Origin: Sulfurimonas sp. | GTDB lineage: Bacteria; Campylobacterota; Campylobacteria; Campylobacterales; Sulfurimonadaceae | NCBI RefSeq assembly: GCF_041583195.1 | Contig: NZ_JBFHGL010000001.1 | Span: 248,001-312,000, forward strand | DNA length: 64,000 bases | Direction: 5' to 3' | Shown: positions 24,738-59,751 of the stretch, one piece after another | Layout: every line of letters starts with the position of its first letter | How positions within the stretch are numbered: position 1 is the stretch's first letter | Notes under the pieces: model-generated | Databases searched by the model: none | What the model saw: the letters and a program-made list of their open reading frames with translations, nothing else | What the model was told of the DNA's origin: nothing | Made by a program: the position numbers and the translations under genes

Positions 24738-24781
24738 TCTAACTCCTTCAAAACATTTTATAATTTATTTATTGATGTATA

Positions 24782-24796
24782 ATATCTAAAAGGAAA
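24782..24796. other. attL core candidate
   Basis: ATATCTAAAAGGAAA, repeated identically at 59043-59057. It overlaps the last two bases of a TATAAT (24778-24783) on the host side. Fusing the left flank to the right flank restores a -10, an AAAGGAAA Shine-Dalgarno and the ATG of the response regulator. Confidence 0.7.
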
Positions 24797-24901
24797 GAAT
24801 ACATACCTTAATATTTGTCATAGACAAAGCCTAAATTTAAAGTCAAATATTCTCTATAAACAACTTTGACTTATTTCTCTTGACATTCTATTGACAAAAA
24901 A

Positions 24902-24922
24902 AGGTACAAAAAAGGTACACTA
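24902..24922. other. Integrase arm-type repeats, left end
   Basis: AGGTACA occurs twice with 11-bp spacing (24902-24908 and 24913-24919) in a 21-bp block that is 20/21 identical to 58993-59013. The block overlaps the stop codon of the giant protein gene. The two blocks would flank the core on both sides in circular attP, as arm sites do. Confidence 0.55.
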
Positions 24923-27900
24923 CTGATCCTTTTTTATATAAAAATCTTTAATCTGTTTTATCTTTACTCCACTTTTTATTGCATCTCTGATCGCATCTTT
25001 ATTTTTCTTAGCATCATCATAACTTTGAATGTTCCATTTTTTACTCCACTCTTTAAGAGCTTGATTCTCTCTGAAACCTTTAACCATTTTTTTATAGCTT
25101 GATACATCCATGTGTTTTGCTTTAACAGCTTCTTTAGCAAAACGATAAAATCTATCTTGCTGATTTTTAGTATAGATGTTAGTTCCGCTATCTTTATACA
25201 TATTGATCACTTTGTATAGTGCAGCTTTTTCTCTTGTCTCTCCGACTGCTGCTCTCACAAAAGGAATTTTATTTACATCTAGGTCCTCACCTTTGTAAGA
25301 TTTTACTGCAGCATCTGCAGATCTGCTTATAAACTTACCTAATCCACCGGTAGCATATTCAAACAAATAATCTAATGTATTTGGTGATATGTCTATAGCT
25401 CCACTATTGAACTGATCACCGCCTGTAGCAGTATTTAGTGTTTTAGCTATACCTTTAGATGCTTCTGTAGCGTTTTTAGTATGGTTGTATGCTTCTGCTT
25501 TATTGTTTATAGCAAACGGATTATCATTTGGTTTGATGTTACCACCATAAAAGTTTTTATTCATAGCCAGGTCTTGAAAAGGTCTTGCTACAGTAGGTGT
25601 AAACATTTGTTCTAATTCCGGTGCAGTAGAGATAGGTGAAAAAGCATTAGCCATTAGACTAAGAACTCTTTTTGGTATATCACCTGCTTTTATTTCGCCT
25701 TTTTCATACTCTGCAGCTATATCTCCCATAGATTTAAACACATTATATCCGTATGGAATTTTGATAGTTTTATAGCTTCCATCTTCATTCATAAAGATAT
25801 ATGAAGTATCTTTTACATAGCTTGGAATTTTGTCGTATTCATCAGCATTAACACTTTGGTTATACATAGATAATCCATATCCTGTTCCGGCTATAGCTGC
25901 TGCTATACCTTTTGCTTTATTGCTATCTTTTAGTGCTTTGAACATTCTGGTAGTACCTTGAATACTTGCATTGTAGAACATATACATAGTATTCATAAGA
26001 GTACCTTTTTCACCTTTACGGTTGAAGTTTACAGTTAGATTTTTAGCTATTGATGCAGCCTTTTGTTTACTTAGTCCACTATCAAGTGCCATTTTATAAG
26101 CTACTGTTCTAACTCCATTTTCTACTGCAGTATTCATATCATCAACATATTGTAGAACTGCTTTAAACGCTTGTTTTGGTGCTAACTCTCCGTTATATTT
26201 ATCTATGATCGCTTGGCTTCTTGCTTTCATGTCAGATACATTGTACTGCTCTAACCATCCTGTAGTACCACCGTTTCGCTTCATATCCATGAAGATTTTG
26301 CTCCACTCGTTAGAGTTTCTACCTCTTTCTGCTCCAAATATACCTTTTATTGCAGGTCCTACATCTTTTAATATCTTAGCTCTATTGACTTTGATATTAT
26401 CCGGCATATTGATCATAGCTGTTTGTAAGTCTCTCTCAAAGTTTGATACTACGAACTCCGGATTGTATTGTGTATTTACAGATGCTAAAAATCTAACTAC
26501 TTTTTGCACCCCTCTCATTAGACTACCCATCTGTTCAGCATTTAGGTTTTTAAAAGCACTTGCAAGTGCAGGATCGTGAATCACTATCTCTTTAGTTTTT
26601 CCATCTACTTTAACGTGCATAACATTATCAGCTAATTGGTAGTTAGGATTCATACCTACTACCTCACCCATATTATTATACATAGGTGTGTGTCTTACTC
26701 CGCTAACTTCATATAAGCTTTGATCAGGGTATTTTTCTATGAAGTCTAGGAATGACTTACCAACTTTGTTTTTCTCTGCTCTTATGATTGTTTCCTGGTA
26801 TGCTAAGATTGAGTGCATAAGTGGCGATTCTACTGCTCTATCACTACCTTTAGCACGTTTGATCTCTTTACCTTTTACATCAAAACCTCTACCTGTACGC
26901 ATAGCAGGACCATTATTATCCATAATACGCTTTAGAGGTACATAGTTATCGTAAGTTTCATCTATTTTTCTGATAAAATCTTCATTCTCTAATCCCTCTG
27001 TGTAAAGAAGTTTCAATCTGTCACTGTTCATCTTGTAAACCATTTGAGCAACTTCATTAAGTTCTTTATTGTCAGCATATTTTCTGATGATCGCTTCTGC
27101 TAAATCATCACGCATACCACTACCAAACTCTTTTCCGTTAAGCTCGTATATACGTTTGTTACGCTCAATAGCGTGTCTTGCATGAAGATACTCATCTAAA
27201 TCATCTATAGACACTTTAGAAGCAGCTATCTTTTGCATAATAGGCTCTACTGTATCAGCTTCAAAGTCTGATATTCTAGCTTCCACTTTACCATGATATA
27301 GTTCTTCTGTTTGATAAGGATTTATAGCATCTGCTATCTCATCACTACCTGCTTTTGTTTTAATAAGCTGCTTAACTCTGTTGAATTTATCCTGCATCAT
27401 ACGCTGTGCAAACTGCAGCTTAGTCTCATCTGGAAGTGTACCTGCTTCCGGTAGTTTACCGGCTTTGAATTTTCTGTACGCTTTATATGAAGCATAGCCA
27501 CCTGCAGTTACTGCTAAACCTGCAAGTGCTTTAGTTGGATCAAAAGTTAAGTTACCATCTTCATCCTCACCGAAACCTGCAATAGCTCCACTAAATGATG
27601 GTGATGCCATAGCTACCATTCCATCAGGTTGTTTTTCTGGTGACCATCCCCATTCATGTATAGAGTTTCCATCTGTGTAAAGGTCTTTAGCTTTAACTTT
27701 CATTTCTAAAATTTTATAGTTTCCATTAAGAGGACCATCCCCATGCTCTATAGCATAAGTCTTACTTGTTGTCACCCAATCATCAGGATTTATTTTTACA
27801 TCAAGATCTTTAGGAACTGCTCTATATATTGTAACATCAGCGTATGGCTTACCTCTTACTGCTTGAATAATTTTTACAGATTCATCATCCATATTTTTAT

Positions 27901-30900
27901 TGCCATGTCCAAAATATCTTGCAGCATTTGGAGAATATATATCTTCTCCATAAACATCCGTTAGGTCTTGTGCAGCAGTTCCGCTATCTTTAGATGGAGC
28001 TGTGTGATCCATTTTGTAAGTATCTTTTTTTGATGCTTCTCTGGCTTCTGATTCTTTTACTGCTTGTTTAAATGCTTCATCATCCGCTAGTTGCTTCTCT
28101 TTAAAGGCTTTAACTCCGTTATCATGGATATATTTAATGTCTTTTCTAATATCTTCATTTGGCATCTCTCTCCACTTACCTCTTGCTTCAAAGTAAACAG
28201 TATCACTTTCTGGATGATAAAAGTAGTTTTTATCTCTATCCGGATAATAAACCTTTCTTCCACCTGTCTCCGGAAGTCCTTGTTCTAAGCGTTGAGCTTT
28301 CTTTTTCTCTAATAAGCTATTTTGTGGTATAATTGTCTTATTAGGAGAGGTTGAAGTAATTGCTGCCGGTGAAGCAGCACCCTCTCCCATATTTCTATCA
28401 GAATAGTAAGTAATTACTCTTTCTTTTCCATTTTTCGTATTACCTGTTACAACTTTAAAGCTAACGCCATCTTGTGTAAGTTCATATACATTTTTTCCGT
28501 AGCTTTCACTTATATCACCTTTGCGAATTACCTCACCAATCTGTAGTAATTCCTCTTTGCTAACTGCTCCTACACTTCCATTATCTAAGTGTTTTTCAAC
28601 ATGTAAAGCTCCAAAGCCTTTTCCGTTACTTTCAAAACCTTTTTCGTATTTAATTATTGAATCAAGATCGCTTTTTCTTACTTCTGTTGCATTTTTACCA
28701 TTAAATGTTACATTCCAGATACCTCTTTTTTCTTTTTGAGCTTTTGATTTAACAGGTGACATCATAGCTACACCATCATCATATTTAATGATAGGATCTT
28801 CATATTTACCCTCTGCTTTAGCAAGTGTTTCAGTCCATGCTTCACCTTGTCTCTGTTTAGATGAATAATCCATACGGTGTTCTGTAGCTCTTGACTGTTG
28901 TTCACCCCATAGTTTCTGATAATTTTTATATTTTTGATGAGATTTTGCGGTTTGAAACTCGTCTCTTATTACTTCAAGTTCTGTCTCTGTGAATTTATAC
29001 TCTTGATATTTTTCATCTATTATCTTTTGATCTAGTTCATCCCATTTAGCTTGATAATATGCAGCATAATCGTCTTTAACTTTTTTATCAAGTCTTGAAA
29101 TTTCTTTACGGTAGAAGTTTTCCATACCGTTAGATAGTTGCTCACTTGAAGTTAAAGGACTGCCACCTCTCGCCCATCCCTCTTGTTTTTGAACTGCGTG
29201 TTGCACTTCATGTAGGAGTGTAGATTTTAAATCTTTTTCGCCTTGCCAATCACCTACATTTAATGTTATTTTATTCTCTCTAGGATTATAACTTGCTCCG
29301 GACTTTCCTGCACTTCTATCAAACGATACTTTTACATCATTTATATCGTTGTATTTATTCACTAATTCTTCATGTTGAAATATATCACCTAACTTTACTT
29401 CTTGATCTGAATTAATTACTTTGTATAGATTTTCTTTGAACTTAGCAGCATTATCATCTATCTCTCTCATAGTCTTTTTGGTAGCTACATCACTAAAAGC
29501 ACCAATTTCATCACCTTTAGCACCCACAAACATAGAATTTAAGCTATTGCCCTGCTTTTGTATCTCTGGATTAAAATTCACTTTGTTTACTGCATCAGTT
29601 AGAATATCTTTTAGCTTACCTCTAACCTGCTTATTTTTAAGTGCTGTTTTTACTACAGTATATCCACCTAAACCAATGATGAATTTTTCAGGATCTAAAG
29701 TAATATTCCCATCTTCGTCTATTTCTACACCGGCATAAGTAGCTACTGCTGCATTATCCAACCCTCTGCTAAAGAGCATATTAGCTTTTTCCCAATCTTG
29801 ATCAAACGGATTAGGCTCTGCATCCAACTCATCTAATTTAGTTTTATAGTCTATTTCATTAACAGGTTTTTGATTCCAATTAGGATCGTTTTTTAAAGTA
29901 GATAAATCCGCTTCTAGCTTACTTAGTAGGTCCTCTGTGATTTTTCCGTTTTCAAAGTCTTTCACATCTTGTTTTGTAGTGTGGAAGTCATAATTATAGT
30001 TTTTTTCATAAGTTGCCGGTGTAACATCTACTTCATAGCCTTTGCCGGTGTTTTGAGTATTTATCTGTCTTGCAGTTATAAGATTGTTAGGATTTTGGCT
30101 CTCTTTTGCAGATACACCTCTACGCATCTCTAATAACTCATTAAAGCGATCATCTTTAGTGATGTTGTCTATTCTAGTATCAAAATTTGCATTAGCTTGA
30201 ACATTTATAGGATCTATAGTCTGAGAAGTAGGCTCTAAATTGTTCAATCCTAAATCATCACTAGCTTTAGTGGCTTTGGTTTTAGTTAGGAACTCTGCTA
30301 CATCAAAACCCTCGTTTTGTAGTGCTTCTTCTGCATCTTGTGGAGATACTTTACCACTTTTTACTGCTTCACCCAATTTAGCATATTTTTCAAGGTGTGC
30401 TTTTTCAGCTTTGTAACCTGCATAGCCACCAAATAACAGTCCTGTACCCATCTGAATAATTCCGGCAGTAAGAGGGTATTCTTGTTGAAAGTCTTTACCC
30501 ATAAGATCATTAGTAGCATTTATAGCACCTGTAGCTGCTACGTTACCTACTATATCACCTTTAGCAAAAGCACTTCCTACAGCTATTGACTTTTCTGCTG
30601 CTTGTCTAGCATCATCTGTTTTAGCTATAGCTTTACCGAATAAACCTGTTCCTGCTTTTGTTAGTCCACCTGCAGCAAAGGCAAAATCAAGTGTAGTATC
30701 TTGTAAAGGCTGATTTTCAGCTTCAAACCTATTAAAATCTTGGCGATATTCAGCCTGTTTTTTTGCTTCTATACCTGCAGATATTGCTTCTTCTTTAGTT
30801 TGTGGAAGCTGATTAAAAGGATTATCCATCTCTGCAATAGGCTTATTGAAGCCCATATCTGTTTTATATTCAGTAACTTTTTTGTTAAATTTATCTTCTA

Positions 30901-31036
30901 TTTTTGCTAAATCTGCATCACTAAAATCTTGATCTGCTGTATATGAATCCCAAACTCTTTTAAGTGCTACATCCTGCTTTTCAGGTGTTAGTTTTTCAAA
31001 TCTTGGATCGTATATAGTCTCTTGTAATAAGCTCAT
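24920..31036 (-). CDS. Giant polyvalent ejection-type protein (2038 aa)
   Basis: Resembles the large polyvalent proteins that phages package and eject with DNA. Seen, in order: Gly/Ala-rich hydrophobic stretches (about 120-210); a DEDGN-TxDP motif followed by a Gly-rich hydrophobic helix (near 440); a zincin motif LLHEVQHAVQ (near 611); a segment like Barnase/EndoU-type nucleases (about 800-880, with FGALHVEKHL and TKNGKERVITYYSDR); an ART-like segment (about 1060-1130, with TIYRAVP, WVTTSKTY, SIHEWGW); a second DEDGN motif (near 1157); and a helical C-terminal half like LPD38-type regions (MYMFYNASIQGTTRMFKAL near 1690). It is last in the virion operon. Activities are inferred from motifs only. 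Confidence 0.8.
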   Translation of the reverse strand: MSLLQETIYDPRFEKLTPEKQDVALKRVWDSYTADQDFSDADLAKIEDKFNKKVTEYKTDMGFNKPIAEMDNPFNQLPQTKEEAISAGIEAKKQAEYRQDFNRFEAENQPLQDTTLDFAFAAGGLTKAGTGLFGKAIAKTDDARQAAEKSIAVGSAFAKGDIVGNVAATGAINATNDLMGKDFQQEYPLTAGIIQMGTGLLFGGYAGYKAEKAHLEKYAKLGEAVKSGKVSPQDAEEALQNEGFDVAEFLTKTKATKASDDLGLNNLEPTSQTIDPINVQANANFDTRIDNITKDDRFNELLEMRRGVSAKESQNPNNLITARQINTQNTGKGYEVDVTPATYEKNYNYDFHTTKQDVKDFENGKITEDLLSKLEADLSTLKNDPNWNQKPVNEIDYKTKLDELDAEPNPFDQDWEKANMLFSRGLDNAAVATYAGVEIDEDGNITLDPEKFIIGLGGYTVVKTALKNKQVRGKLKDILTDAVNKVNFNPEIQKQGNSLNSMFVGAKGDEIGAFSDVATKKTMREIDDNAAKFKENLYKVINSDQEVKLGDIFQHEELVNKYNDINDVKVSFDRSAGKSGASYNPRENKITLNVGDWQGEKDLKSTLLHEVQHAVQKQEGWARGGSPLTSSEQLSNGMENFYRKEISRLDKKVKDDYAAYYQAKWDELDQKIIDEKYQEYKFTETELEVIRDEFQTAKSHQKYKNYQKLWGEQQSRATEHRMDYSSKQRQGEAWTETLAKAEGKYEDPIIKYDDGVAMMSPVKSKAQKEKRGIWNVTFNGKNATEVRKSDLDSIIKYEKGFESNGKGFGALHVEKHLDNGSVGAVSKEELLQIGEVIRKGDISESYGKNVYELTQDGVSFKVVTGNTKNGKERVITYYSDRNMGEGAASPAAITSTSPNKTIIPQNSLLEKKKAQRLEQGLPETGGRKVYYPDRDKNYFYHPESDTVYFEARGKWREMPNEDIRKDIKYIHDNGVKAFKEKQLADDEAFKQAVKESEAREASKKDTYKMDHTAPSKDSGTAAQDLTDVYGEDIYSPNAARYFGHGNKNMDDESVKIIQAVRGKPYADVTIYRAVPKDLDVKINPDDWVTTSKTYAIEHGDGPLNGNYKILEMKVKAKDLYTDGNSIHEWGWSPEKQPDGMVAMASPSFSGAIAGFGEDEDGNLTFDPTKALAGLAVTAGGYASYKAYRKFKAGKLPEAGTLPDETKLQFAQRMMQDKFNRVKQLIKTKAGSDEIADAINPYQTEELYHGKVEARISDFEADTVEPIMQKIAASKVSIDDLDEYLHARHAIERNKRIYELNGKEFGSGMRDDLAEAIIRKYADNKELNEVAQMVYKMNSDRLKLLYTEGLENEDFIRKIDETYDNYVPLKRIMDNNGPAMRTGRGFDVKGKEIKRAKGSDRAVESPLMHSILAYQETIIRAEKNKVGKSFLDFIEKYPDQSLYEVSGVRHTPMYNNMGEVVGMNPNYQLADNVMHVKVDGKTKEIVIHDPALASAFKNLNAEQMGSLMRGVQKVVRFLASVNTQYNPEFVVSNFERDLQTAMINMPDNIKVNRAKILKDVGPAIKGIFGAERGRNSNEWSKIFMDMKRNGGTTGWLEQYNVSDMKARSQAIIDKYNGELAPKQAFKAVLQYVDDMNTAVENGVRTVAYKMALDSGLSKQKAASIAKNLTVNFNRKGEKGTLMNTMYMFYNASIQGTTRMFKALKDSNKAKGIAAAIAGTGYGLSMYNQSVNADEYDKIPSYVKDTSYIFMNEDGSYKTIKIPYGYNVFKSMGDIAAEYEKGEIKAGDIPKRVLSLMANAFSPISTAPELEQMFTPTVARPFQDLAMNKNFYGGNIKPNDNPFAINNKAEAYNHTKNATEASKGIAKTLNTATGGDQFNSGAIDISPNTLDYLFEYATGGLGKFISRSADAAVKSYKGEDLDVNKIPFVRAAVGETREKAALYKVINMYKDSGTNIYTKNQQDRFYRFAKEAVKAKHMDVSSYKKMVKGFRENQALKEWSKKWNIQSYDDAKKNKDAIRDAIKSGVKIKQIKDFYIKKDQ

Positions 31037-31937: not shown

Positions 31938-33368
31938 CTATACTCCTAGTACCATTGAATAATTAACTCTGTAGTAGCCATCATCTGCCATAATTACAGC
32001 TTCCGGCATAACATCTTTAACCTCTTGTGCTATTACACCTATGTTTGGAATATTAGCTACACCTATTTGTTTAGCTTTATCGTTCCAAGTCCACACATAA
32101 ATGTTGAATCCGTTATATTCACTCACTTTTTGAATATTAGATTTTAATCTAGCATCAGATGCAGCGGCAGCCGGACCCATGATAGAAGCTGCACCTAATG
32201 TAGCACCTGCTCCAACCAATGATCCACCCATAGCACCTTTTCCAGATGCAGCTTGTGCATCAGCATTCCACATACTAGAATTATATTGATTGTTTAGTCC
32301 ACCTATACCTGAAAACATACTACCTGCACCACTAGCAGCATTTGAATATGATTGACTAGCTTGTCCTAAATAGTTTTGTGCAGTTCCTGACATTCCACGA
32401 CCTAATTGAGTATAACCTGTTAAATTAGCTACTCTTTGCTGTCTGTAAGCATCTCCTGACTGAACAGCTTGGTTATATGCTTGATTATTAGCCTGTGCCA
32501 TAGCTCCGGCTTTTTGTCCTGCTAAGTCTGTATATGATTTAGCAGCTATTCCGCTATTAGCTATACCTCTTTTAGCTAATGTGCTAGTAAGGTTATTTTC
32601 TGCTTGTGTATAGTTTGAATCTAAACCATTGAATAAGTTTGCTTTTTGTCTATCATAAACACCCTGGTCTACAGTTCCTAGCTGCTCATTAGCTTGTAGC
32701 ATAGCTTCACGAAGATTTGAATTTGGATCGGCATTGTAGATCTGTTTATTTTCCCATGAAGTTTTATTGCCATTCATCTTCTTTTTTAAAGCATCTATTT
32801 CTTTTTGATATTTATTCGCCTGGTGCATATACTTTTCATTATACGTTACAGTATTATCTTTAGAAGAATTGTTATTGAAAAGATTACTATTTCTTCTAAC
32901 CATTATTCCGTTTCGGAATTCAAAATTAGCATCAGTAGCTAATGGATCATTATTTTGACCTTTGTTTAGCAGTTCAAAATTATAATTAGGATTGCTTTGT
33001 GTTGTTGTTTTTGATTTATCATAATTACCAATAGCTTTATCATATTTATTCTGTAAGAGTTTTAATTGTCGCTCATTAGCAGTTCTTGTATTGTTATAAT
33101 CTCGTTGAGCTTGTTCATAAGCATCTCTCGTAAGAATGTTATCATTTGAAAATCCATTTTCCCTAGAAGCATTCGTGGAAACACCGCCTGTTTCCATCTG
33201 TCTATAGGTATTATTCCAATCCATTTGATTTTGCTCAGATAAATCTTGCTGCCTACCGGCTATATCTATCACAGAATTAATAGCATCTTTATTAGTGTCT
33301 ATTAAATCTAGCTCATTTTGAGTTAATGGTCTTTGAACACTTGTGCTTCCGCCTTTTCCGCCACCCAT
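31938..33368 (-). CDS. Phage protein with C-terminal S74 chaperone domain
   Basis: A 476-residue protein whose C-terminus is a peptidase S74 intramolecular chaperone (about 405-476): SDARLKSNIQKVSEYNGFNIYVWTW, then IGVIAQEVKDVMPEAV and YYRVNYSMVLGV. S74 domains help trimerise tail spikes and fibres and then cut themselves off. The N-terminal part is Asn/Gln/Gly/Ala-rich and helical, with no beta-helix evident, so it may be an internal or connector protein rather than a fibre. The N-terminus GGGKGGSTSVQRPLT is also seen in such phage proteins. Confidence 0.75.
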   Translation of the reverse strand: MGGGKGGSTSVQRPLTQNELDLIDTNKDAINSVIDIAGRQQDLSEQNQMDWNNTYRQMETGGVSTNASRENGFSNDNILTRDAYEQAQRDYNNTRTANERQLKLLQNKYDKAIGNYDKSKTTTQSNPNYNFELLNKGQNNDPLATDANFEFRNGIMVRRNSNLFNNNSSKDNTVTYNEKYMHQANKYQKEIDALKKKMNGNKTSWENKQIYNADPNSNLREAMLQANEQLGTVDQGVYDRQKANLFNGLDSNYTQAENNLTSTLAKRGIANSGIAAKSYTDLAGQKAGAMAQANNQAYNQAVQSGDAYRQQRVANLTGYTQLGRGMSGTAQNYLGQASQSYSNAASGAGSMFSGIGGLNNQYNSSMWNADAQAASGKGAMGGSLVGAGATLGAASIMGPAAAASDARLKSNIQKVSEYNGFNIYVWTWNDKAKQIGVANIPNIGVIAQEVKDVMPEAVIMADDGYYRVNYSMVLGV

Positions 33369-33821
33369 CTACTGCTCCTTGATATGATTTGTTTTGAAGT
33401 GTATAAACTCCGGTGTACCAAATTTTGATTGAATTTTATCAACGCTATTTTTATTTCCGTTGCCTACAAAAGCTCTTGCTTCTACTTCTAAACCTAATTG
33501 CTTTGCATAATTAACAACATTATTATAAAGAAGATATGCTGCTCTTGTTTTTCTAAAGTGTGGTTTTATGTATGCTATATCACCGTAATAATAGGGATTT
33601 ATATATCCTAGATCTTGTATGTAAGCTAAAGTAAATCCTGCTATCTCATCATCTTTTTCTGCAATAACAATATCTTTTCCGCTTCTAAACCAATCCATAA
33701 CAGCACCATGAAAAAAAATATCATCTTTAAGTTGGTTGCTGTGATATACAGTCTTGATTAAGTCTTTAAACATCTCTACCAACTCTGTAAAATCTGCTGT
33801 AGTGGCTTGTCTAATATTCAC
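33369..33821 (-). CDS. Phage GNAT acetyltransferase
   Basis: A 150-residue GNAT-fold protein: N-terminal NIRQATTADFTELVEMFKDL, core strand DIVIAEKDDEIAGFTLAYIQ, and the acetyl-CoA loop as HFRKTRAAYLLYNNVVNYAKQLG. The substrate may be a protein or small molecule and cannot be told. It starts with GTG overlapping the stop of the 55-residue gene upstream (GTGA). Its place inside the virion operon suggests late expression, perhaps to modify a virion or host protein. Confidence 0.8.
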   Translation of the reverse strand: MNIRQATTADFTELVEMFKDLIKTVYHSNQLKDDIFFHGAVMDWFRSGKDIVIAEKDDEIAGFTLAYIQDLGYINPYYYGDIAYIKPHFRKTRAAYLLYNNVVNYAKQLGLEVEARAFVGNGNKNSVDKIQSKFGTPEFIHFKTNHIKEQ

Positions 33822-33985
33822 TTTAGTTTTCCTGTAATCTTATTGATTGCTCTTGCTATAGTTTTTGTGTTTTCATTTACAGGCTCTATAGACTTTATTC
33901 TCTCTATCTCATCTATAATCTCAGATAAAATACCCCTAATAACACTATCTTGTACAAATTTTAGTTTGTTTTTAGCCTGTTTCAT
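33818..33985 (-). CDS. Small phage protein, 55 aa
   Basis: A 55-residue ORF (MKQAKNKLKFVQDS at the start, NKITGKLK at the end) rich in Lys, Ile and Glu, predicted as two helices. It has a GAGGAA Shine-Dalgarno 9 nt ahead of the ATG, and its TGA overlaps the GTG of the GNAT gene. It fills the only gap between the tail-hub-like gene and the GNAT gene. Function is not recognised. Confidence 0.65.
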   Translation of the reverse strand: MKQAKNKLKFVQDSVIRGILSEIIDEIERIKSIEPVNENTKTIARAINKITGKLK

Positions 33986-33999
33986 AGTATCGGTTTCCT

Positions 34000-35559
34000 C
34001 TATTTTAAAACTTCATAATCATAAGCTACTGCTTTTACTTTTGCAAATTCTGTAGTTTTTATTAAGAAAGAAATATGTTTTCCTACTGTGCCTTGTGGCA
34101 GATATATTTTATCTGTTATAGTAGTAATAATTTCCTTATCATCTACAAGCACTATAACTTGGTAGTTTCCTGTGGCATTTACTCTTACTACTCTATATGC
34201 TTTTGTTTGTGTGAAAGTTCCATCGTGGAATTGCTTTGTGCGATATGATATAGATCTGTAGTTTGAATAATCCGGATAATATTCATACTCTTTTCCACCC
34301 TCAATAGTGAAAAATGAGCCTTGTTTTAAGTATGCACTATCTATTGTATCTGTTGCATATTTTATTTTTCCATTGTCCTGGAAGTCAATAATTATTGTTC
34401 TGCCATTAGTGAATAGATAATATTTATTGTGTACTGCTGCAGAATTTTTAAAATCGTAATTGAAAGTGCTATAAACTTCTGTTGAATAATCATCAAAACA
34501 ACTTTCACCGATTACAGGTGCATTAAAGTTAGTAGCAGTTTTAGTTAATACTACTGCATTAGCACCATCAAAAGATAAAATAGCATCGTTATCATCTATA
34601 GTGGATAGCCATATTAACCTACCTGCTAAATTCTGAACAGATCTTTTATCTTTGCAACCATAGTTGTATGGGAGTTTATTAAGTGATATGTTAGACATAT
34701 TAGAGCCGGATAGCAAATACATACTATCTGCTGTAAATATAACTATACCATTACCAATTACCCCTAATCCTGTGATAGTTTGTGGAACAGGTACAAAATT
34801 GTAGGCACTCCAATACTCCGGCTGCCCCTCTAAACTAAAATATACTTTATTGCCTAACGCACCAAAAAATGTTCCGTTTTGCTGAACTAGCATATCTAGG
34901 TTTGCAGGAGGAGCATCATGTAAATGCGTTGTTAATTCTTCTCTGCTTATAAAGAAGTCGTAAATAGAATCTGTATAAGCTGTAGTGGCTATAGGGATTG
35001 TAGCAACTAAATTAAAAGATGGATTTAAACCTCCGGAACGATATAACTTTCTTTGTGTTGCTGTGCCTGGTGGTGAATCTGAAAAGGTGATATTAGCTTC
35101 TGTATCAGTTAAAGTAACTTTCACATATCCCGCAGGAGGAGATTCAAATAAATCGTCATGCACATAAGTGTAAGTGTACCAATAAGTACCGTTTAATAAT
35201 CCTGGACTTCCTGCTGCTGCTCCCAAAGCAGTAGTAGGTGCAGCATGATTTCCTAAATCTGATGTTGTAGTTCCATCATATCTTTTCATTATCCCTGCAC
35301 TATTGGACCAATACAAAAACCCTCCAAACTCTACAAAAAATCTATCTTCATCTGTAGTAATAAGTTGATTTTGTTCTTTATAATAAAATCCATACTTCCC
35401 ACTAATTGTAGTAGTGGTTTCTCTTTTTGATCTTTGGGATTTCAAGCTTCCGGATTGAAAATCTGCATTTATACTAATTGGTGATTCATTATCTGCTATA
35501 AGGTGAGCATCTATTAAATTATTAACACCACCGTTAAAAAGTGCTATTTCTCTTGTCAT
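34000..35559 (-). CDS. Phage tail-hub or nozzle-like protein
   Basis: A 519-residue, beta-strand-rich protein. It starts REIALFNGGVNNLIDAHLI and has many aromatic strand pairs (YGFYYKEQNQLIT, YWYTYTYVHDDLFES, VYFSLEGQPEYWSAYNFVPV, LAGRLIWLSTID). The pattern resembles propeller-like podovirus tail proteins such as P22 gp10 or nozzle proteins that sit below the portal and adaptor; no specific family is claimed. It follows the lysis cassette by 9 nt in the late operon. A structural role is likely, the exact one uncertain. Confidence 0.7.
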   Translation of the reverse strand: MTREIALFNGGVNNLIDAHLIADNESPISINADFQSGSLKSQRSKRETTTTISGKYGFYYKEQNQLITTDEDRFFVEFGGFLYWSNSAGIMKRYDGTTTSDLGNHAAPTTALGAAAGSPGLLNGTYWYTYTYVHDDLFESPPAGYVKVTLTDTEANITFSDSPPGTATQRKLYRSGGLNPSFNLVATIPIATTAYTDSIYDFFISREELTTHLHDAPPANLDMLVQQNGTFFGALGNKVYFSLEGQPEYWSAYNFVPVPQTITGLGVIGNGIVIFTADSMYLLSGSNMSNISLNKLPYNYGCKDKRSVQNLAGRLIWLSTIDDNDAILSFDGANAVVLTKTATNFNAPVIGESCFDDYSTEVYSTFNYDFKNSAAVHNKYYLFTNGRTIIIDFQDNGKIKYATDTIDSAYLKQGSFFTIEGGKEYEYYPDYSNYRSISYRTKQFHDGTFTQTKAYRVVRVNATGNYQVIVLVDDKEIITTITDKIYLPQGTVGKHISFLIKTTEFAKVKAVAYDYEVLK

Positions 35560-35568
35560 TTTATGCTC

Positions 35569-35976
35569 CTATGCGGTAAATAAAACAATCTGATCTTCAT
35601 TTCTCACATCAATATGCAACCAACTCACTCCAAGCTCCATTCCTTTGATATGTGGAAAATCTTTTAAATTATCTAATATATAATTTCTTACTTCTTCGGC
35701 TGTATAGTCACTAAATACAATATCTAAAGCATTAGCGAAAGAGTGTTGTGAGCCATAGCTATAATGTGGACTGTCCGGTGTTCTTATTCCGCTCCATTCA
35801 CGATTGCCATTCCAATAATAATTATTGATAGTCATAGTTCCTAAGTTAAAATGTTCTTTTAGTTTGTCTATACTTTCAATCAGTCTTACATCAACATATC
35901 GCCATGCTTTTTCTCCATACTTTTCATACATAGCTTTTGGTACTAATTCGTGAACTTTGAAATGTTTAGATTTCAT
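35569..35976 (-). CDS. M15-type peptidase endolysin
   Basis: A 135-residue zinc peptidase that would cut peptide links in peptidoglycan. Zinc ligands are visible: H and D in SQHSFANALDIVF and H in WLHIDVR. There is no signal peptide, so it needs the holin to reach the periplasm. It overlaps the o-spanin gene by 4 nt and closes the lysis cassette. DD-carboxypeptidase-like or L,D-endopeptidase specificity cannot be separated from the sequence. Confidence 0.85.
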   Translation of the reverse strand: MKSKHFKVHELVPKAMYEKYGEKAWRYVDVRLIESIDKLKEHFNLGTMTINNYYWNGNREWSGIRTPDSPHYSYGSQHSFANALDIVFSDYTAEEVRNYILDNLKDFPHIKGMELGVSWLHIDVRNEDQIVLFTA

Positions 35977-36206
35977 CTACATCCCTCATTAGCTTTTATC
36001 AACTCTCTATTACACAACATCAATTCTTCTTGTTGTGATTTACCTGTATGCTTAAATCTGTTACAATCCACTTTAGGAACTTTACATGGTACAGTTATGT
36101 ATGTTTTTTTATACTTTACAACTATGTGATCTTTACTAGCACACCCAACACTACTTATTCCAATCAAGCATATAAGTATTGCGTTCAATAGTTTTGTATT
36201 CTTCAC
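35973..36206 (-). CDS. Rz1-like o-spanin lipoprotein
   Basis: A 77-residue lipoprotein: signal sequence LLNAILICLIGISSVGC with a lipobox ending at C22, then a short periplasmic part with further cysteines. It overlaps the Rz-like gene by 56 nt in another frame, the nested layout typical of Rz/Rz1. It should sit in the inner leaflet of the outer membrane and join the i-spanin to fuse the two membranes at lysis. Confidence 0.85.
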   Translation of the reverse strand: MKNTKLLNAILICLIGISSVGCASKDHIVVKYKKTYITVPCKVPKVDCNRFKHTGKSQQEELMLCNRELIKANEGCR

Positions 36207-36528
36207 AGCTTCTCTCCTCTCTTGGTTTTGTAGTGTTTACATCTTTGTAGATGATTTTTGTTTCGACTTTTACTTCACGAGGTAATTTCTTGTAAGCTTC
36301 AAAATCTTTGCGTGTTTTGTCTGCATCTATCGCTAAGAACTGTATAGCCTCATTCTGTTCTGTCAGCGTTTCATCACACTCTGTAAAGTTTACACCTGTT
36401 ATAAGGTGGGCTTTTTCCAAGTTTGACACATCTGTATTTAGAGAACTGATCATGTATTCTCTATGTCCTACATATAGTAAGATCAATAAACCAATGGCTA
36501 TGTATAGATACTGTTTAATGTCTATCAT
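36151..36528 (-). CDS. Rz-like i-spanin
   Basis: A 125-residue protein with one N-terminal membrane helix (about 7-24, YLYIAIGLLILLYVGHREY) and a helical periplasmic part with cysteines (FTECDETLTEQNEAI, RSCEEYKTIE). It fits an inner-membrane spanin. The ATG overlaps the holin stop by 4 nt and its end overlaps the o-spanin gene out of frame. Confidence 0.82.
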   Translation of the reverse strand: MIDIKQYLYIAIGLLILLYVGHREYMISSLNTDVSNLEKAHLITGVNFTECDETLTEQNEAIQFLAIDADKTRKDFEAYKKLPREVKVETKIIYKDVNTTKPREERSCEEYKTIERNTYMLDWNK

Positions 36529-36974
36529 GCTTTTTCACCTGCAAGTCTGATAAGAAAAGTTCTTATCTTTCCACCTATCATAGCTATGGCATCATATTCA
36601 GGTAGTTCTCCACCACTTTTGATTGTGTACATATTTCCGATGATGCTGTAAACTTCACTTAAAACAAGGATAGTCATACACACATCAAGTATAGTTTTAA
36701 ACTCAACTCCTACAGCTTTTGCACCAAGAGCCAAAACTATAGGCATCAGCAAAAGCATAAGCTTTGTGAGTATTCCATATTTCATTCTTACACTTGTTCT
36801 AGGCTCACCAAGTTTTCCTGCTTTGATCCAACCTGTAAAAAGGTCTATTATCAAAAGAACAGCATATATAGAATAAGTCTCTACCTCTATGTCTAGATAC
36901 ACCAAGAACGATGCAGCACAAACAGTAAAAAAATTAAATACAGTTTTTGCTATTGAACTTTCAGCTATCATCAT
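36525..36974 (-). CDS. Phage holin (Phage_holin_4 type)
   Basis: A 149-residue protein with about four hydrophobic segments and the family blocks YSIYAVLLIIDLFTGWIKAGK, TSVRMKYGILTKL and ILVLSEVYSIIGNMYTI. It should form the inner-membrane hole that frees the endolysin. Its start overlaps the stop of the PLA2-like gene (TAATG). Confidence 0.85.
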   Translation of the reverse strand: MMIAESSIAKTVFNFFTVCAASFLVYLDIEVETYSIYAVLLIIDLFTGWIKAGKLGEPRTSVRMKYGILTKLMLLLMPIVLALGAKAVGVEFKTILDVCMTILVLSEVYSIIGNMYTIKSGGELPEYDAIAMIGGKIRTFLIRLAGEKA

Positions 36975-37186
36975 TAAACCCTTTTAAACATCTTAGATGT
37001 GTATTTCGCCCAACAGCCTATTGCACCGCCTAGCGTTATGTAAGTTGCGTGGAATATTCCAAGCTTTTTCTTTAAACATCCGAAGAACTTTGATGTACTG
37101 CAAGTCATGTCGTGCAGTCTGCAGCATGATGATATTTTGATCCCTCTCCATACTTCAGGGAAAGCAGTACAATAGTCTTTTTTCAT
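36974..37186 (-). CDS. Cys-rich PLA2-like mini-protein in the lysis cassette
   Basis: A 70-residue protein starting at the ATG at 37186, which overlaps the stop of the gene upstream (TAATG). The N-terminal half reads DYCTAFPEVWRGIKIS then SCCRLHDMTC, with CC-x2-HD as in the catalytic helix of phospholipase A2; the following C is one residue further away than in the classical CCxxHDxC. Similar short CC-x2-HD proteins occur near phage lysis genes. A hydrophobic C-terminal segment (ATYITLGGAIGCWAKY) may touch a membrane. Lipase activity is an inference. Confidence 0.65.
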   Translation of the reverse strand: MKKDYCTAFPEVWRGIKISSCCRLHDMTCSTSKFFGCLKKKLGIFHATYITLGGAIGCWAKYTSKMFKRV

Positions 37187-45799: not shown

Positions 45800-45808
45800 G
45801 TCTGTTTC

Positions 45809-52214: not shown

Positions 52215-52862
52215 ATGTTGTTACAAAAAATTAATGATCTTCTCGAAATAAAAGGTAGGGGTACACAAAAGAAATTAGCTGATTTTATAGGTGAAACTCC
52301 GGTCAATGTAAACAGATATATAAAAGGGAGTAGAGATATTCCTGTAGAGATAATTCCCAAGATTGCAGAATTTTTTAATGTTTCAACGGATTATTTACTA
52401 GGAAATGATATTATAAAGTCACAAGTTAAAACAATTCCCATTATAGGTACTACAAGTTGTGGAGGAACAGAGTTGAGTAATCATGTAGAAATTGGTGCTG
52501 TTTGTTATTATAATGGTGCTTACTATAAAGATAGTCTCTATTGTGTTGTTGCTAATGGGGATAGCATGGCTCCGGAGATCGAAGATGGAGATGAAATAAT
52601 TTGTGATCCTGATGTAGTACCTGAAAATGGTGATATGGTGCATTATACAATCGAAAATGAAAGTGCTGTAAAGGTATTTGTTAAAGATGAAGATGCTTAT
52701 ATTATCCAATTTATTCCATATAATGCCAACGAAAATTTTAAAACAAGAACTTTTAGATTAGATGATGAATATACAGCTAATCTGAAAATAGCTAAAGTAG
52801 TAGCAGTAAATAAATTAAAGTACAACAATAGAGCTGCAAGATTAAGAATGATAGGAAGATAG
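52215..52862 (+). CDS. CI-like repressor with S24 autoprotease
   Basis: A 215-residue repressor. The N-terminal HTH is TQKKLADFIGETPVNVNRYIKGSRDIPVEIIPKIAEFFNVSTDYLL (about 17-62). The C-terminal LexA-type domain has a Cys-Gly cleavage site in GTTSCGGTEL (about 78-87), the nucleophile Ser in VANGDSMAPEI and the general-base Lys in AVKVF. It should hold lysogeny and be cleaved in a RecA-dependent way after DNA damage. An AAGGA ribosome site precedes the ATG. The lipoprotein gene follows 1 nt after its stop. Confidence 0.92.
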   Translation: MLLQKINDLLEIKGRGTQKKLADFIGETPVNVNRYIKGSRDIPVEIIPKIAEFFNVSTDYLLGNDIIKSQVKTIPIIGTTSCGGTELSNHVEIGAVCYYNGAYYKDSLYCVVANGDSMAPEIEDGDEIICDPDVVPENGDMVHYTIENESAVKVFVKDEDAYIIQFIPYNANENFKTRTFRLDDEYTANLKIAKVVAVNKLKYNNRAARLRMIGR

Positions 52863-53504: not shown

Positions 53505-53553
53505 TTTCCAATTTGGTAATAATTTAAGTTTCCTTTTATTTCCAATTTGGTAA
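53505..53553. promoter_or_regulatory. Second operator pair for the CI/Cro regulators
   Basis: Two identical copies of TTTCCAATTTGGTAA (53505-53519 and 53539-53553), 34 bp apart, match the operator consensus at 52126-52189. They lie between the secreted-protein gene (leftward) and the recombination operon (rightward); the TAATAAT running from the first copy could be a rightward -10. Confidence 0.72.
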
Positions 53554-53908: not shown

Positions 53909-54076
53909 ATGGTTGATGATGGAACAAAAGCGATCATAGTGATTCTTTCTTTATGTCTAGGAGCTTTGTTTTATGCTCTTATAGAAGATAAGACGGAAGC
54001 AATAGTGACCGCTTGGAAGATAAAAAGCTTCTTTCAAATGGTAAGAATAAAACTACTGTTAAGGGAGTTAAGATGA
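53909..54076 (+). CDS. Small membrane protein, 55 aa
   Basis: A 55-residue ORF with an AAGGAG ribosome site. One membrane helix (about 8-25, AIIVILSLCLGALFYALI) is followed by a basic C-terminus. Its stop overlaps the ATG of the RecE-like gene (ATGA). It is the first gene of the rightward operon. Function is not recognised. Confidence 0.6.
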   Translation: MVDDGTKAIIVILSLCLGALFYALIEDKTEAIVTAWKIKSFFQMVRIKLLLRELR

Positions 54077-54879
54077 GTAAGATAGAAAAATACAAAGGGT
54101 GCATGAAAGTATCTGATGAAGAATACTTTAAAATCCCTGCACTTTCAAATAGTGACTTTAGACTATTAAAAGAGAGTGTTTTACACTATGAAAATAAAGA
54201 TTTATTCCAATTAAGCGGATCATCTTTAGAGTTAGGTAGTGCAGTTCATAAGTTGGTATTAGAGCCGGACACATTTAATGAAGATTTTGTAATCGAAGAT
54301 TTTAAGGGTGCGGAACTAAACAAAAACTCTAAAGCGTACAAAGAAGCAAAAGCTGCATGGGAAGATGGTGTTAAAGGTAGAAAAATTCTATCTAAAGACC
54401 TTTTTGAGCAAGTTACTTTAATGGCTAAAAATGTAAAAGCTATTGCCGGTGGACTGCTTCAAGGTGGTATAGCTGAAAATGCTTTTATATCAGAGTTTGA
54501 TGGTATGCCGGTTAAATGTAAAGCTGATTACTATAGACAAGATGCAGGTGTAGTTATTGATTTAAAGACTACTAAGAGCATTAAAGACTTTAAAAAGTCT
54601 ATCCTGGAATATGGCTACGGTACACAATCGGCATTTTACTTAGATGTAATCAATAAAGCAGGTTATAAAGCAGATAGATTCATATTTATCTTGGTTGAAA
54701 CTTCTGCTCCTTACATGGTAAGTGTGCAGGAAATGAGTTTAGAGAGTATTGAGGAGGGTAGAGCTATTTATAGTGAGCTTCTTCAAACTTGGAAAAACTA
54801 CAAAAATGATGGTGTAGTTAATGTTGTTAAAACTACAGGCTATCCGGAATGGTATTTAGAACAAAGGAGAGGTGCGTAA
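54073..54879 (+). CDS. RecE-like exonuclease (PD-(D/E)XK)
   Basis: A 268-residue nuclease. ALSNSDFRLLKESVLHYENKD (about 22-42) and SSLELGSAVHKLVLEPDTF are typical of RecE / exodeoxyribonuclease VIII. The catalytic core is VIDLKTTKSIKDF (about 162-174) with YGTQSAFYLDVINKAG, then the metal ligand D and K of the family. It should chew 5' ends to give 3' tails for the RecT partner. I prefer the ATG at 54073 (GGGAG ribosome site) over one 60 nt upstream that runs through the preceding gene. Confidence 0.88.
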   Translation: MSKIEKYKGCMKVSDEEYFKIPALSNSDFRLLKESVLHYENKDLFQLSGSSLELGSAVHKLVLEPDTFNEDFVIEDFKGAELNKNSKAYKEAKAAWEDGVKGRKILSKDLFEQVTLMAKNVKAIAGGLLQGGIAENAFISEFDGMPVKCKADYYRQDAGVVIDLKTTKSIKDFKKSILEYGYGTQSAFYLDVINKAGYKADRFIFILVETSAPYMVSVQEMSLESIEEGRAIYSELLQTWKNYKNDGVVNVVKTTGYPEWYLEQRRGA

Positions 54880-55748
54880 TGAATAATTTACAAGTAAGAG
54901 AAGATCAAATTAAACAAGGTCTTGTAGCTCAACAAAAAATGGTAAAAAGTCTCTTTGGAGACAAAGCAAAAGCAGATAAGTTCTTAGCAACTGCTGCAAA
55001 GGTGGCAACAGATTATAAGTTAGCTAACTGTAATGTAAACAGTATTATAGATGCTTGTGTAACTGTAGCTCAATTAAACCTTGATCTTAGTCCGGCACTA
55101 TCTCATGCTTACATAGTTCCGTTTAAACAATCGGTGCAGTTAATTGTTTCTGCAAGAGGTTACACAGCTTTACTTGCTCGTAACGGTTGGAAGCTAAAGA
55201 GCTACATAGTAAATGAAGCTGATGATTTTGAGTATGTGATAGATGGCTTTGAAGAAACTATCAGATTTGTTAAAAACATTGATGATATGGATGAGAAGTT
55301 TAGATATGCAGTAGCATTAGCTCAATCTCCGGATGGTACTCTTTACATTGAAGTAATGAACGCTAAACAAATTGATAAACATCGTTTAGTTAGCTCAAAC
55401 CAAAAAGGTAGCAAACCTACAGGTGTATGGGCTGATTGGTTTAATGAGATGGCAAAAAAGACTGTTATCAAAAAGCTTGTTAAGCAACTTCCACTTGGTG
55501 AGGAAATAATGACTGCAGTAGCTAAAGATGATAAACCTATTGAAGCGGAGATCATAGCTGATGAAAAAGAGACTGTAGATATAAACTCTATGATTACTAG
55601 CCCTGCTACTCCTGAACATGATGAACTCACAGGAGAAGTATATCAAGATAAAGATATTGAAAGACCTGTTACTCAAAAGCCTGATATGTCACTACTTGAT
55701 GGTGTTAATGCTGATTGTACAGATAAAGAGATGGAGGAAGCTGTTTAG
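54879..55748 (+). CDS. recT: RecT-like single-strand annealing protein
   Basis: A 289-residue annealing protein. The family blocks FLATAAKVATDYKLANCNVNSIIDACVTVAQLNLDLSPALSHAYIVPF and VQLIVSARGYTALLARNGWKL, then NEMAKKTVIKKLVKQLPL, match RecT. It pairs with the RecE-like exonuclease to recombine phage DNA. The ATG at 54879 overlaps the exonuclease stop (TAATG). The C-terminus is acidic. Confidence 0.93.
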   Translation: MNNLQVREDQIKQGLVAQQKMVKSLFGDKAKADKFLATAAKVATDYKLANCNVNSIIDACVTVAQLNLDLSPALSHAYIVPFKQSVQLIVSARGYTALLARNGWKLKSYIVNEADDFEYVIDGFEETIRFVKNIDDMDEKFRYAVALAQSPDGTLYIEVMNAKQIDKHRLVSSNQKGSKPTGVWADWFNEMAKKTVIKKLVKQLPLGEEIMTAVAKDDKPIEAEIIADEKETVDINSMITSPATPEHDELTGEVYQDKDIERPVTQKPDMSLLDGVNADCTDKEMEEAV

Positions 55749-57668: not shown

Positions 57669-57965
57669 ATGGACACAAAAGCATTTGAAAATTTAGAGCT
57701 TATTCCGCAGCTTCTGCAAAAAATAGAATCTATGGAAGAAAGATTGAAAAAATTTACACCTGCAGTTACTACAAAAAAAGAGGTCGCTAAATTTTTAAAT
57801 CGTTCCGAAAGAACTATAAATAGGTATATAGCGGAGGGCTTTCTTAAAGAGGGCTATCATTTTGACCGAAAAAGTGATAAACTTCTAGTGTTTATAGAGG
57901 ATAAAATCTTAGAATTTAGGGATCAACTAAACAGAGGTATTATCAATGAAAAAATTGCGGTTTAA
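57669..57965 (+). CDS. Helix-turn-helix protein, excisionase candidate
   Basis: A 98-residue protein with TTKKEVAKFLNRSERTINRYIAEGFLKEGYHFDRKSDKLLVFIEDKILEF (about 38-86), the MerR-like winged helix of AlpA/Xis-type proteins. It overlaps the integrase gene by 20 nt, the usual place for xis. The GTGG ribosome region precedes the ATG. It may direct excision and also regulate the operon. Confidence 0.7.
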   Translation: MDTKAFENLELIPQLLQKIESMEERLKKFTPAVTTKKEVAKFLNRSERTINRYIAEGFLKEGYHFDRKSDKLLVFIEDKILEFRDQLNRGIINEKIAV

Positions 57966-59022
57966 AAATCGTAACGGTGTTTTGTATTTTGGTTTTGATG
58001 GTAAGTTTAAATCATCTAAATTAAAAGATACAAATGTAAACAGGAACATTATAAAAGGTAAGTTCCTTAGAGGTGAGCTAAATAGTGATCTAAGTATAAA
58101 TGAGCATAAATCGCCTTTGATTAAAGATTTAGTTAAAGAGGTTTTTATAGACAAAAGTAAACATCTTAAACGAAAAACTTTAAAGGCTTATGCTACTGCT
58201 AAAGACAAGCATATTTTACCGTATTTTGGCGATAAAATGGTAACGGATATAAAACCGATTGACATTAAAAACTTTCAAGATGATTTAGTAGCTAAAGGAT
58301 TAAACTCATCTTCGATAAGGTTTCCAAGAGTAATTCTAAAAGAAGCATTTAACTTAGCTATACTTAGTGAGCATATAATCTCTAATCCTATTGTAATGGT
58401 AGGTGTTCCAAAGATAAAGAAAAAAGAGCAAAAACCAAAGCCCTTTACACTAGATGAGATTGATTTGATTTTATCTTCTGCTGCCGGTCCTCTTAGAAAC
58501 TTTTTAGGAATATCTTTTTTTACAGGTATGAGATCAGGTGAACTGTTAGCTTTAAAATGGGAAGATGTAGATTTTGAAACAGAAACTATCACTATCAATA
58601 AAACTATTGCTGATGGTGCGATAAATTCTGCTAAAACAAAATCGAGTGAGCGTGACATAGAAATGATACCACAAGTTATAGAGTTTTTTAAAGCACAGCA
58701 GCTTGTGACTTTTTTAAATGGTAGCTATGTTTTTCTAAATGCTAGAAATAATCATTATGGAAACAATATGACTATGTATAGCAAATATCAAGATTTATTG
58801 AAAAAATTAAAACTTGAAAAAAGAAGTTTACATAATACAAGACATACTTTTGCAAGTATTATGTTAAATAACGGAATTGATCCTCTTTGGGTATCAAACA
58901 CACTAGGACATAGTAACTTACAGATCACATTAAAGATCTATACTCACTATATGCCTAAAAAAGAAAAAATGAAGTTACCTTTTTTAGAAAAGAGGTACAA
59001 AACAGGTACACTATCCTTATAA
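57946..59022 (+). CDS. int: Phage integrase (tyrosine recombinase)
   Basis: A 358-residue integrase. The N-terminal arm-binding part (about 1-55) is followed by the core-binding domain (about 60-150) and the catalytic domain (about 165-358): R in TGMRSGELLALKWEDV, K in TKSSERDIEM, HxxR in HNTRHTFASIML, H in LGHSNLQ and the Y nucleophile in IYTHYM. It lies at the prophage's right end, and its last codons contain the right-hand AGGTACA arm repeats. It reads toward the host response regulator. Confidence 0.95.
   Translation: MKKLRFKNRNGVLYFGFDGKFKSSKLKDTNVNRNIIKGKFLRGELNSDLSINEHKSPLIKDLVKEVFIDKSKHLKRKTLKAYATAKDKHILPYFGDKMVTDIKPIDIKNFQDDLVAKGLNSSSIRFPRVILKEAFNLAILSEHIISNPIVMVGVPKIKKKEQKPKPFTLDEIDLILSSAAGPLRNFLGISFFTGMRSGELLALKWEDVDFETETITINKTIADGAINSAKTKSSERDIEMIPQVIEFFKAQQLVTFLNGSYVFLNARNNHYGNNMTMYSKYQDLLKKLKLEKRSLHNTRHTFASIMLNNGIDPLWVSNTLGHSNLQITLKIYTHYMPKKEKMKLPFLEKRYKTGTLSL
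58993..59013. other. Integrase arm-type repeats, right end
   Basis: AGGTACA at 58993-58999 and 59004-59010 (11-bp spacing), within the 3' end of int; the 21-bp block differs from 24902-24922 at one base. Confidence 0.55.
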
Positions 59023-59042
59023 AGCCCTATATTAGGAGCAAT

Positions 59043-59057
59043 ATATCTAAAAGGAAA
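59043..59057. other. attR core candidate
   Basis: ATATCTAAAAGGAAA, identical to 24782-24796. It holds the AAAGGAAA ribosome site of the response regulator starting at 59065. The upstream -10 in the lysogen is phage DNA (TATAAA at 59018-59023 or TATATT at 59028-59033). Confidence 0.7.
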
Positions 59058-59064
59058 TTAAACC

Positions 59065-59751
59065 ATGATAGATTTACTTAAAAACTTTACTCTGCTTTAT
59101 GTAGAAGACGATGAGATGGTTAGAAAAAATGCCGTCGAATATCTAAGCAGAATTTCCAAAAAAGTCCTTGAAGCACAAGACGGCAAAGAAGCAATACAAA
59201 TATGGAAAGATGAGAAGCCTGATATTATAATTACGGATATATCTATGCCAAAACTAAATGGTTTGGACATGGCAAGCTATATACGCTCAATAGATAAAAA
59301 AGTTCAGATTATTGTAGCTACCGCTCATTCTGATACCGAGTATTTGATGCAGGCAGTTGAATTGCAACTTGTAAAATATATAATCAAGCCTGTGACAAAA
59401 GAGAAACTTATAGACGCACTAAACAGATCTATGGACTTAATAGAAGACAAAAGTAAATTCAATCTAAAACTATCTGAGAATACTTTCTACAATGGATTTG
59501 AAAAAATTATTTTGGAAGATGATAAGCAGATCAAACTTACAAAAAACGAAACACTTTTTTTAGATCTTCTCGCACATCATCACACACGTGTAGTCACATA
59601 TGAAGAGATTGAAGATGCTATATGGCCGATTGAGGGGATGAGTCAAGATGCCGTACGTTCACTTGTAAGAGGTATTCGTAAGAAGATACCAGAAGGTGTT
59701 ATAGAGAACATAAGCGGAAGCGGATACAAGTTAAATATCTATACAAATTAG
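59065..59751 (+). CDS. OmpR-like response regulator next to attR
   Basis: A 228-residue regulator. The receiver domain has VEDDEMVRK, D in DIIITDISMPKLNG (about 55) and K in YIIKPVTKEK. A C-terminal winged helix (about 150-228) shows LTKNETLFLDLLAHHHTRVVTYEEIEDAIW and VRSLVRGIRKKIPEGVIENISGSGYKL. It converges on the histidine kinase gene with 4-nt overlap, probably its partner. Its natural promoter appears to be left behind at 24778, 34 kb away, so its expression may now depend on phage sequence or read-through from int. Confidence 0.9.
   Translation: MIDLLKNFTLLYVEDDEMVRKNAVEYLSRISKKVLEAQDGKEAIQIWKDEKPDIIITDISMPKLNGLDMASYIRSIDKKVQIIVATAHSDTEYLMQAVELQLVKYIIKPVTKEKLIDALNRSMDLIEDKSKFNLKLSENTFYNGFEKIILEDDKQIKLTKNETLFLDLLAHHHTRVVTYEEIEDAIWPIEGMSQDAVRSLVRGIRKKIPEGVIENISGSGYKLNIYTN

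Follow-up and report, generated by a model that had tools for sequence, protein, structure and literature searches.

Integrated elements that part a bacterial gene from its promoter are already known, including a case with a rescue promoter within an integrase pseudogene, and the examples below are given as excerpts of the cited reports present them. In Streptococcus pyogenes, integration of SpyCI islands at mutL parts the gene from its promoter and excision restores the arrangement (PMC3430984, PMC4129442). These are small islands for which growth-dependent excision is reported, whose attachment (att) site lies where mutL begins, at its 5' end, inside an operon; for SpyCIM5, a rescue promoter in the integrase pseudogene is described (PMC4129442). 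In Escherichia coli, the HK022 prophage lies between torS and torT, where a phage promoter near the junction raises torS and 73 bp separate the int stop from the junction (PMC6814406). PMC4129442 also cites lambda at a secondary site in the guaB promoter and SpnCI in that of uvrA; these involve other genes and integrases, not two-component systems. For the Sulfurimonas prophage SNW-1, no att sites were detected and the phage is thought to be extrachromosomal (PMC11290706).

Here we describe a 64,000-nucleotide stretch of a Sulfurimonas genome (NCBI RefSeq assembly GCF_041583195.1, contig NZ_JBFHGL010000001.1, positions 248,001 to 312,000; hereafter the window), in which a prophage lies ahead of a response regulator (RR) gene. 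Similar to HK022 at torS, int is the last prophage gene and reads outward, and the insertion precedes a two-component gene. Unlike HK022 as excerpted, the window prophage has a 20-nt gap between int and the att core that shows no promoter, and it targets a response regulator gene, cutting the -10 hexamer itself. No phage promoter for the host gene was recognised at the junction: no -10 above chance lies within 70 nt, and one candidate is located further inside int. As with the SpyCI islands, a gene is parted from its promoter in a manner restorable upon excision; unlike those islands in the parts of the reports cited, the window element is a full prophage at a 5' leader site, with no evidence of regulated excision. 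It shares with lambda at guaB and SpnCI at uvrA its integration in a host promoter, and SNW-1, as reported, is a different case from the window prophage, which has att sites. When the literature was searched for prophages that part a response regulator from its promoter, the exact combination gave no match, and no regulator-cutting case was noticed among the listed titles and abstract openings on Sulfurimonas prophages. What the window appears to add is a response regulator target, a cut inside a shared -10 and the lack of a junction promoter.

Results

Both prophage-host junctions lie on a single contig, of which the window is a continuous part (contig C1). As the initial annotation had claimed, a 15-bp repeat, ATATCTAAAAGGAAA, stands at both ends of the element (Table 1). 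The repeat is exact, by eye cannot be extended on either side, and has only two exact copies in the whole 2,379,408-base (2.38 Mb) assembly, compared to ~0.02 copies per 2.38 Mb expected from base composition and 0 in a reversed-sequence control. Allowing up to 2 mismatches added one site, at 3040. Because mismatch-tolerant matches also arise in shuffled sequence (3 of 100 shuffles contain 3 or more two-mismatch matches), the weight rests on the repeat being exact and on where it lies. Joining the flanks yields TGTATAAT-ATCTAAAAGGAAA-TTAAACC-ATG (full joined site, TGTATAATATCTAAAAGGAAATTAAACCATG), and places the TATAAT hexamer 26 nt before the RR start, as the annotation had also proposed; from this -10, native transcription would begin roughly 13 nt ahead of the ATG. 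The repeat core starts with the last two bases of this hexamer and has the RR ribosome site inside it. The further claim that the prophage sits between the promoter and the ribosome site of a response regulator gene is supported, with the refinement that the core begins within the -10; the expectation that excision would restore the native start likewise agrees with the joined flanks, which rebuild it exactly.

The DNA between the repeats matches phage families in Pfam and PHROGs, namely terminase, portal, capsid, repressor, Exo/RecT and Int, together with a weak match to Xis. The late genes are arranged leftward, the S24 repressor gene begins at 52215, and Exo, RecT, the weak Xis match and Int read rightward. 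An integrase gene, direct end repeats, and structural as well as lysogeny genes are all present, as in a site-specific temperate prophage. By its sequence, the element is a complete-looking temperate prophage of a podovirus-like phage of a Sulfurimonas-type bacterium. Relatives of its portal protein in a phage collection were below 60% identity in 751 of 751 records, and the best of them belonged to phages with podovirus-marking names. The prophage also carries an N6/N4 DNA methylase gene at 48599-49399.

Table 1. Features of the prophage and its host flanks, in window coordinates.
Feature	Position	Strand	Evidence or remark
DoxX family gene, left host neighbour	24348..24737	-	Pfam DoxX E=2.4e-19
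Native RR -10 (TATAAT)	24778..24783	+	Stranded at attL, now points into phage; joined-site score 10.76 bits
DoxX -10 (TATTAT), opposite strand, overlaps RR -10	24779..24784	-	Unaltered by insertion, 5.5 bits in attB and attL
attL core ATATCTAAAAGGAAA	24782..24796	+	Exact repeat; left arm spacing matches related elements
Left attP arm: TATAAA box and two GGTACA repeats	24854..24920	+	58, 107 and 118 nt from core, as in G162
Large polyvalent protein LPD38, 2038 aa, last leftward gene	24920..31036	-	Pfam LPD38 E=1e-43
Virion/packaging genes: tail/ejection, internal virion protein, capsid (41532), portal (43979), TerL (45809), TerS (47172)	31938..47684	-	PHROGs
Predicted repressor operator copy 1, TTTCCAATTTGGTAA	52126..52140	-	Three exact genome copies, all in prophage
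HTH and S24 peptidase lysogeny repressor	52215..52862	+	Pfam; PHROG 4 E=4.6e-26
Predicted operator copies 2 and 3	53505..53553	+	Copy 3 overlaps predicted -10 TAACAT (53551) ahead of exo-recT-xis-int
Exonuclease VIII-like and RecT-like genes, same strand ahead of int	54013..55748	+	PHROGs E=6.3e-56, 5.1e-53
Xis-like gene	57669..57965	+	PHROG excisionase E=3.6e-4, weak; homologue directly before int in related loci
Tyrosine integrase, last gene, reads outward	57946..59022	+	Pfam Phage_integrase E=8.3e-25; PHROG 1 E=1e-67
Candidate -10 inside int, directed into RR	58233..58238	+	9.95 bits (9.948)
Right attP arm: two GGTACA repeats and core-proximal arm	58994..59042	+	49 and 38 nt to core, matching G162 and G080
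attR core with RR ribosome site AAAAGGAAA	59043..59057	+	Exact repeat
OmpR-type response regulator (RR), ORF intact	59065..59751	+	Pfam Response_reg and Trans_reg_C
dCache histidine kinase, convergent neighbour of RR	59748..61631	-	Pfam dCache_2, HATPase_c

The att sites were compared with those of eight elements in seven genomes of the same genus for which both ends were resolved, and whose integrases are 56-69% identical to the prophage Int. These elements, of 3.6-8.9 kb each, are not the same phage. Of the further integrase contigs, G015 alone could be counted among the sites, as the one with both ends resolved; integrase rows L263 and L266 are partial, and L270 duplicates G142. The core sequences of the eight elements differ from the prophage core; the arm layout is common to all. 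On the left, TATAAA lies 55-62 nt and the GGTACA repeats 103-121 nt inside the core, while on the right the GGTACA repeats lie 47-52 and 36-41 nt before the core, with the exceptions that G080 has a single left GGTACA and that one right repeat of G162 reads GGCACA. The distance from the int stop to the core ranges from 9 to 23 nt across elements. Each of the prophage arm spacings (Table 1), together with the 20 nt from int stop to core, is identical to its counterpart in G162. Arm-type sites in the arrangement of this integrase family are therefore present at both ends of nine elements, the window prophage included, and the prophage boundaries are secure because this layout is shared with the eight related elements.

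One related element encodes a replication protein of the phage GPA type, and by eye the others listed also carry Rep, Xis-like and Int genes. The 3.6-8.9 kb elements (L037, L143, L151, L152, L153 and L257) share an xis-int-attP module with the 34-kb prophage, suggesting that tailed phages and minimal rolling-circle elements exchange modules. The 8.9 kb element (L143:10224-15103) encodes a DUF4917/PDC-S21 protein along with a pair resembling retron type II-A (matches to NDT_II-A and RT_II-A), cargo that is likely defensive.

Target sites were named from a reading of translations by eye (rplU, tyrA, proC, FlhB-like and nanoRNase). Three related elements lie just upstream of the -10 of the gene read as rplU, one lies upstream of the gene read as tyrA, whose TATAAT scores only 2.6 bits, and one lies upstream of a 651-aa gene that retains a 12.1-bit -10. 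Two elements (L152 and L153) are inserted at the 3' end of another OmpR-type response regulator gene, also named by eye, and their cores preserve the gene end. The G080 element, at the 3' end of the FlhB-like gene, could sever a co-oriented downstream gene from its operon promoter. Promoter severing as a general strategy of this integrase family was unsupported, as it was seen in 1 of 9 resolved elements only, namely the window prophage.

Regarding the host locus, the dCache histidine kinase convergent with the RR is its likely partner, and a histidine kinase homologue lies within about 7 kb of the RR in all 3 of the longer orthologous stretches (L034-L036). A close RR orthologue (E<=1e-80) is present in 28 of 135 genus genomes, including the genome analysed here, and in 19 of 79 of good quality. 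With the own genome excluded, 27 orthologues were compared, each with up to 1.5 kb of upstream sequence; the starts of the G085 and G114 orthologues are ambiguous, and that of G107 is preceded by only 191 nt. DoxX is divergent from the RR in 23 of these 27 loci, in one of them 1,060 nt off, and the window integrase was found in the fetched upstream sequence (up to 1.5 kb) of none of the 27. Prophage-free relatives with DoxX and the regulator adjacent, which the initial annotation had proposed to look for, do exist: in the closest orthologues, G014 and G074 (84% identity), 75 and 74 nt, respectively, separate the divergent starts of DoxX and the RR, compared to 66 nt in the joined window, and TGTATAAT is at -26 in all three. 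This direct adjacency is seen in the two closest relatives only, because a conserved short antiparallel ORF (MxIQTQYNYEKTW..., 62-74 aa), absent in G014 and G074, lies directly ahead of the RR in 21 of the 27 orthologues (L006 and 20 others).

Promoters were scored with a matrix of 17 columns, obtained by expectation-maximisation seeded with TATAAT from 112 host upstream regions (window plus stretches totalling 396 kb), the RR excluded; it detects sigma-70-like -10 sites only. The joined site, at 10.76 bits, scored above 88% of the host best scores, and this value was reached in 0 of 560 mononucleotide shuffles. In the lysogen, the best score in the last 70 nt before the RR was 0.64 bits, which is above 17% of host bests and was reached by 78% of shuffles. 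The boxes that the initial annotation had put forward as replacement promoters, TATAAA (59018-59023) and TATATT (59028-59033), do occur, but at -3.65 and -5.37 bits, respectively, they were rejected on score. Among the orthologues, TATAAT occurs within 62 nt of the RR start in 22 of 27, and 21 of 27 have a best matrix score of at least 5 bits, compared to a background of 37 of 112 general host upstream regions with TATAAT within 60 nt. Five carry no TATAAT in that 62-nt interval, six stay under 5 bits (two of these with an ambiguous start), and some of the orthologue TATAATs may lie off the homologous place. At -26 the RR hexamer is nearer the start than usual: 28 of the 49 TATAAT occurrences within 120 nt in host upstream regions fall at -31 to -50, and 5 of the 49 fall in the bin of the RR hexamer. 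Judged by these scores, the RR is very probably cut from its own promoter in the lysogen.

The TATTAT of DoxX that lies over the RR -10 is also found in G014 (7.2 bits) and G074 (6.9 bits). The top DoxX-side score of the joined site (7.7 bits, at -64) belongs to a site that is gone in attL and was not seen in G014 or G074; given this loss, DoxX may not be untouched by the insertion. A scan of window 24300-25300 gave no terminator-like site separating DoxX from the leftward late genes, and late-gene read-through into DoxX is possible from this arrangement.

On the other side of the prophage, 42 nt separate the int stop from the RR start. The idea of a terminator separating the two was dropped, as no terminator-like site was found between them. 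The predicted int-operon promoter (53551, 8.2 bits) overlaps one of the three exact copies of TTTCCAATTTGGTAA, which are found next to the repressor gene and in front of the int operon; allowing two mismatches gave 8 matches, a number that 7 of 100 shuffles also attained and that does not clearly exceed chance. The int operon is likely repressed by the S24 repressor in the lysogen, at operators predicted from this repetition. Self-cleavage during the SOS response is a property of S24 repressors of this kind; a Cys-Gly and candidate Ser/Lys positions can be seen in the repressor translation. Read-through to the RR may be weakened by two hairpins resembling terminators on the int strand, one at 53841-53860 and one inside the Xis-like gene at 57837-57855. 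We consider int-operon read-through or a promoter inside int a likelier source of RR transcripts than the junction boxes named by the initial annotation, which had also mentioned int read-through. In the modelled read-through RNA (window 59014-59055; z -2.26; 5 of 200 shuffles), a phage-derived UCCU may pair with AGGA in the ribosome site of the RR, a weak lead.

No second lysogen at the RR site was found in the 135 genus genomes or in viral contigs, and the viral contigs held neither an RR relative nor a core joined to the RR leader. Besides its own genome, the portal protein had one match among the 135 genus genomes, at 34% identity. Capsid relatives in viral contigs, for the best 80 of 108, were at most 54% identical to that of the prophage, and neither this integrase nor the RR (E<=1e-8) was found in the stretches fetched around those 80 of 108 or around the G110 portal locus.

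Discussion

We favor, with a probability of roughly 0.7, the reading that integration within a shared -10 deprives the RR of its native promoter and leaves it to phage transcription, as a by-product of the site rather than an evolved switch. The tyrosine integrase would have inserted the phage at a 15-bp attB that starts inside the RR -10 and contains the RR ribosome site, within a back-to-back promoter common to the RR and DoxX. In the lysogen the ribosome site would stay with the RR and the promoter would not, and DoxX would retain its conserved -10. The RR would then be transcribed from phage DNA only, by outward read-through of the int operon or from a promoter within int, such that the quiet lysogen would express little of it and its expression would be tied to prophage induction, and excision would bring back the native start exactly. 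The insertion, its att sites, the loss of the conserved -10 and the lack of a recognisable junction promoter are read directly from the sequence, and from these we infer the RR expression level, operator function, read-through and excision competence. That the cut is a by-product of the integration site is most likely; it looks incidental because no comparable cut is visible in the related elements.

A bolder version of events, possible but on the whole unlikely, is that lysogeny shifts the RR to the repressor-controlled int operon, such that the output of the two-component system would act as an SOS-linked reporter of induction, with the divergent DoxX promoter sharing the -10 staying in place. 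It is unlikely that the RR instead stays expressed in the lysogen from the promoter inside int (58233), a promoter swap resembling SpyCIM5. In the 30,210 nt of sense coding DNA scanned (18 window genes), two sites score this high; the candidate ranks second, behind a host-gene site at 10.49 bits, and excerpted precedents are the SpyCIM5 rescue promoter within an integrase pseudogene (PMC4129442) and the HK022 phage promoter near the junction (PMC6814406). However, the site is intragenic, the score threshold was chosen post hoc, and chance alone should yield one or two such sites somewhere. Among the aligned integrases, only G147 and G154 share the hexamer, and the leader through int would be about 820 nt.

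We find it quite unlikely that the insertion is neutral, either with TATAAT not being the RR promoter or with an RR that is unused. Although the RR is absent from 107 of the 135 genus genomes (E<=1e-80) and other RR-like genes are plentiful (46 matches in G000), TATAAT precedes the start in most RR orthologues, and the RR ORF is intact, with 77 synonymous-only and 37 amino-acid-changing codon differences to G014 over 226 codons. Active lysogeny, in which regulated excision and reintegration would switch the RR off and on to the benefit of host and phage, is very unlikely: the site would be restored exactly upon excision, the prophage has Int and a weak Xis match, and SpyCIM1 at mutL offers a precedent in the part of PMC3430984 cited, but none of the 8 other att-resolved elements, at five other sites, visibly parts a -10 from a gene, recurrent occupation of the site (a supporting, not strictly defining, criterion) is not seen, with the integrase in the fetched upstream sequence of 0 of 27 orthologous RR genes and no RR relative found in viral contigs, and the RR is accessory, such that tolerance of its loss suffices. 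No positive evidence supports a beneficial, regulated switch, and reversibility is apparent at the level of sequence only.

The favored reading, loss of the native RR promoter as a by-product of the integration site, predicts that RR mRNA would be low in the quiet lysogen, elevated on induction, and native after excision. If this reading is true, a prophage can cut off a regulator within a shared -10 while leaving its coding sequence and ribosome site untouched.
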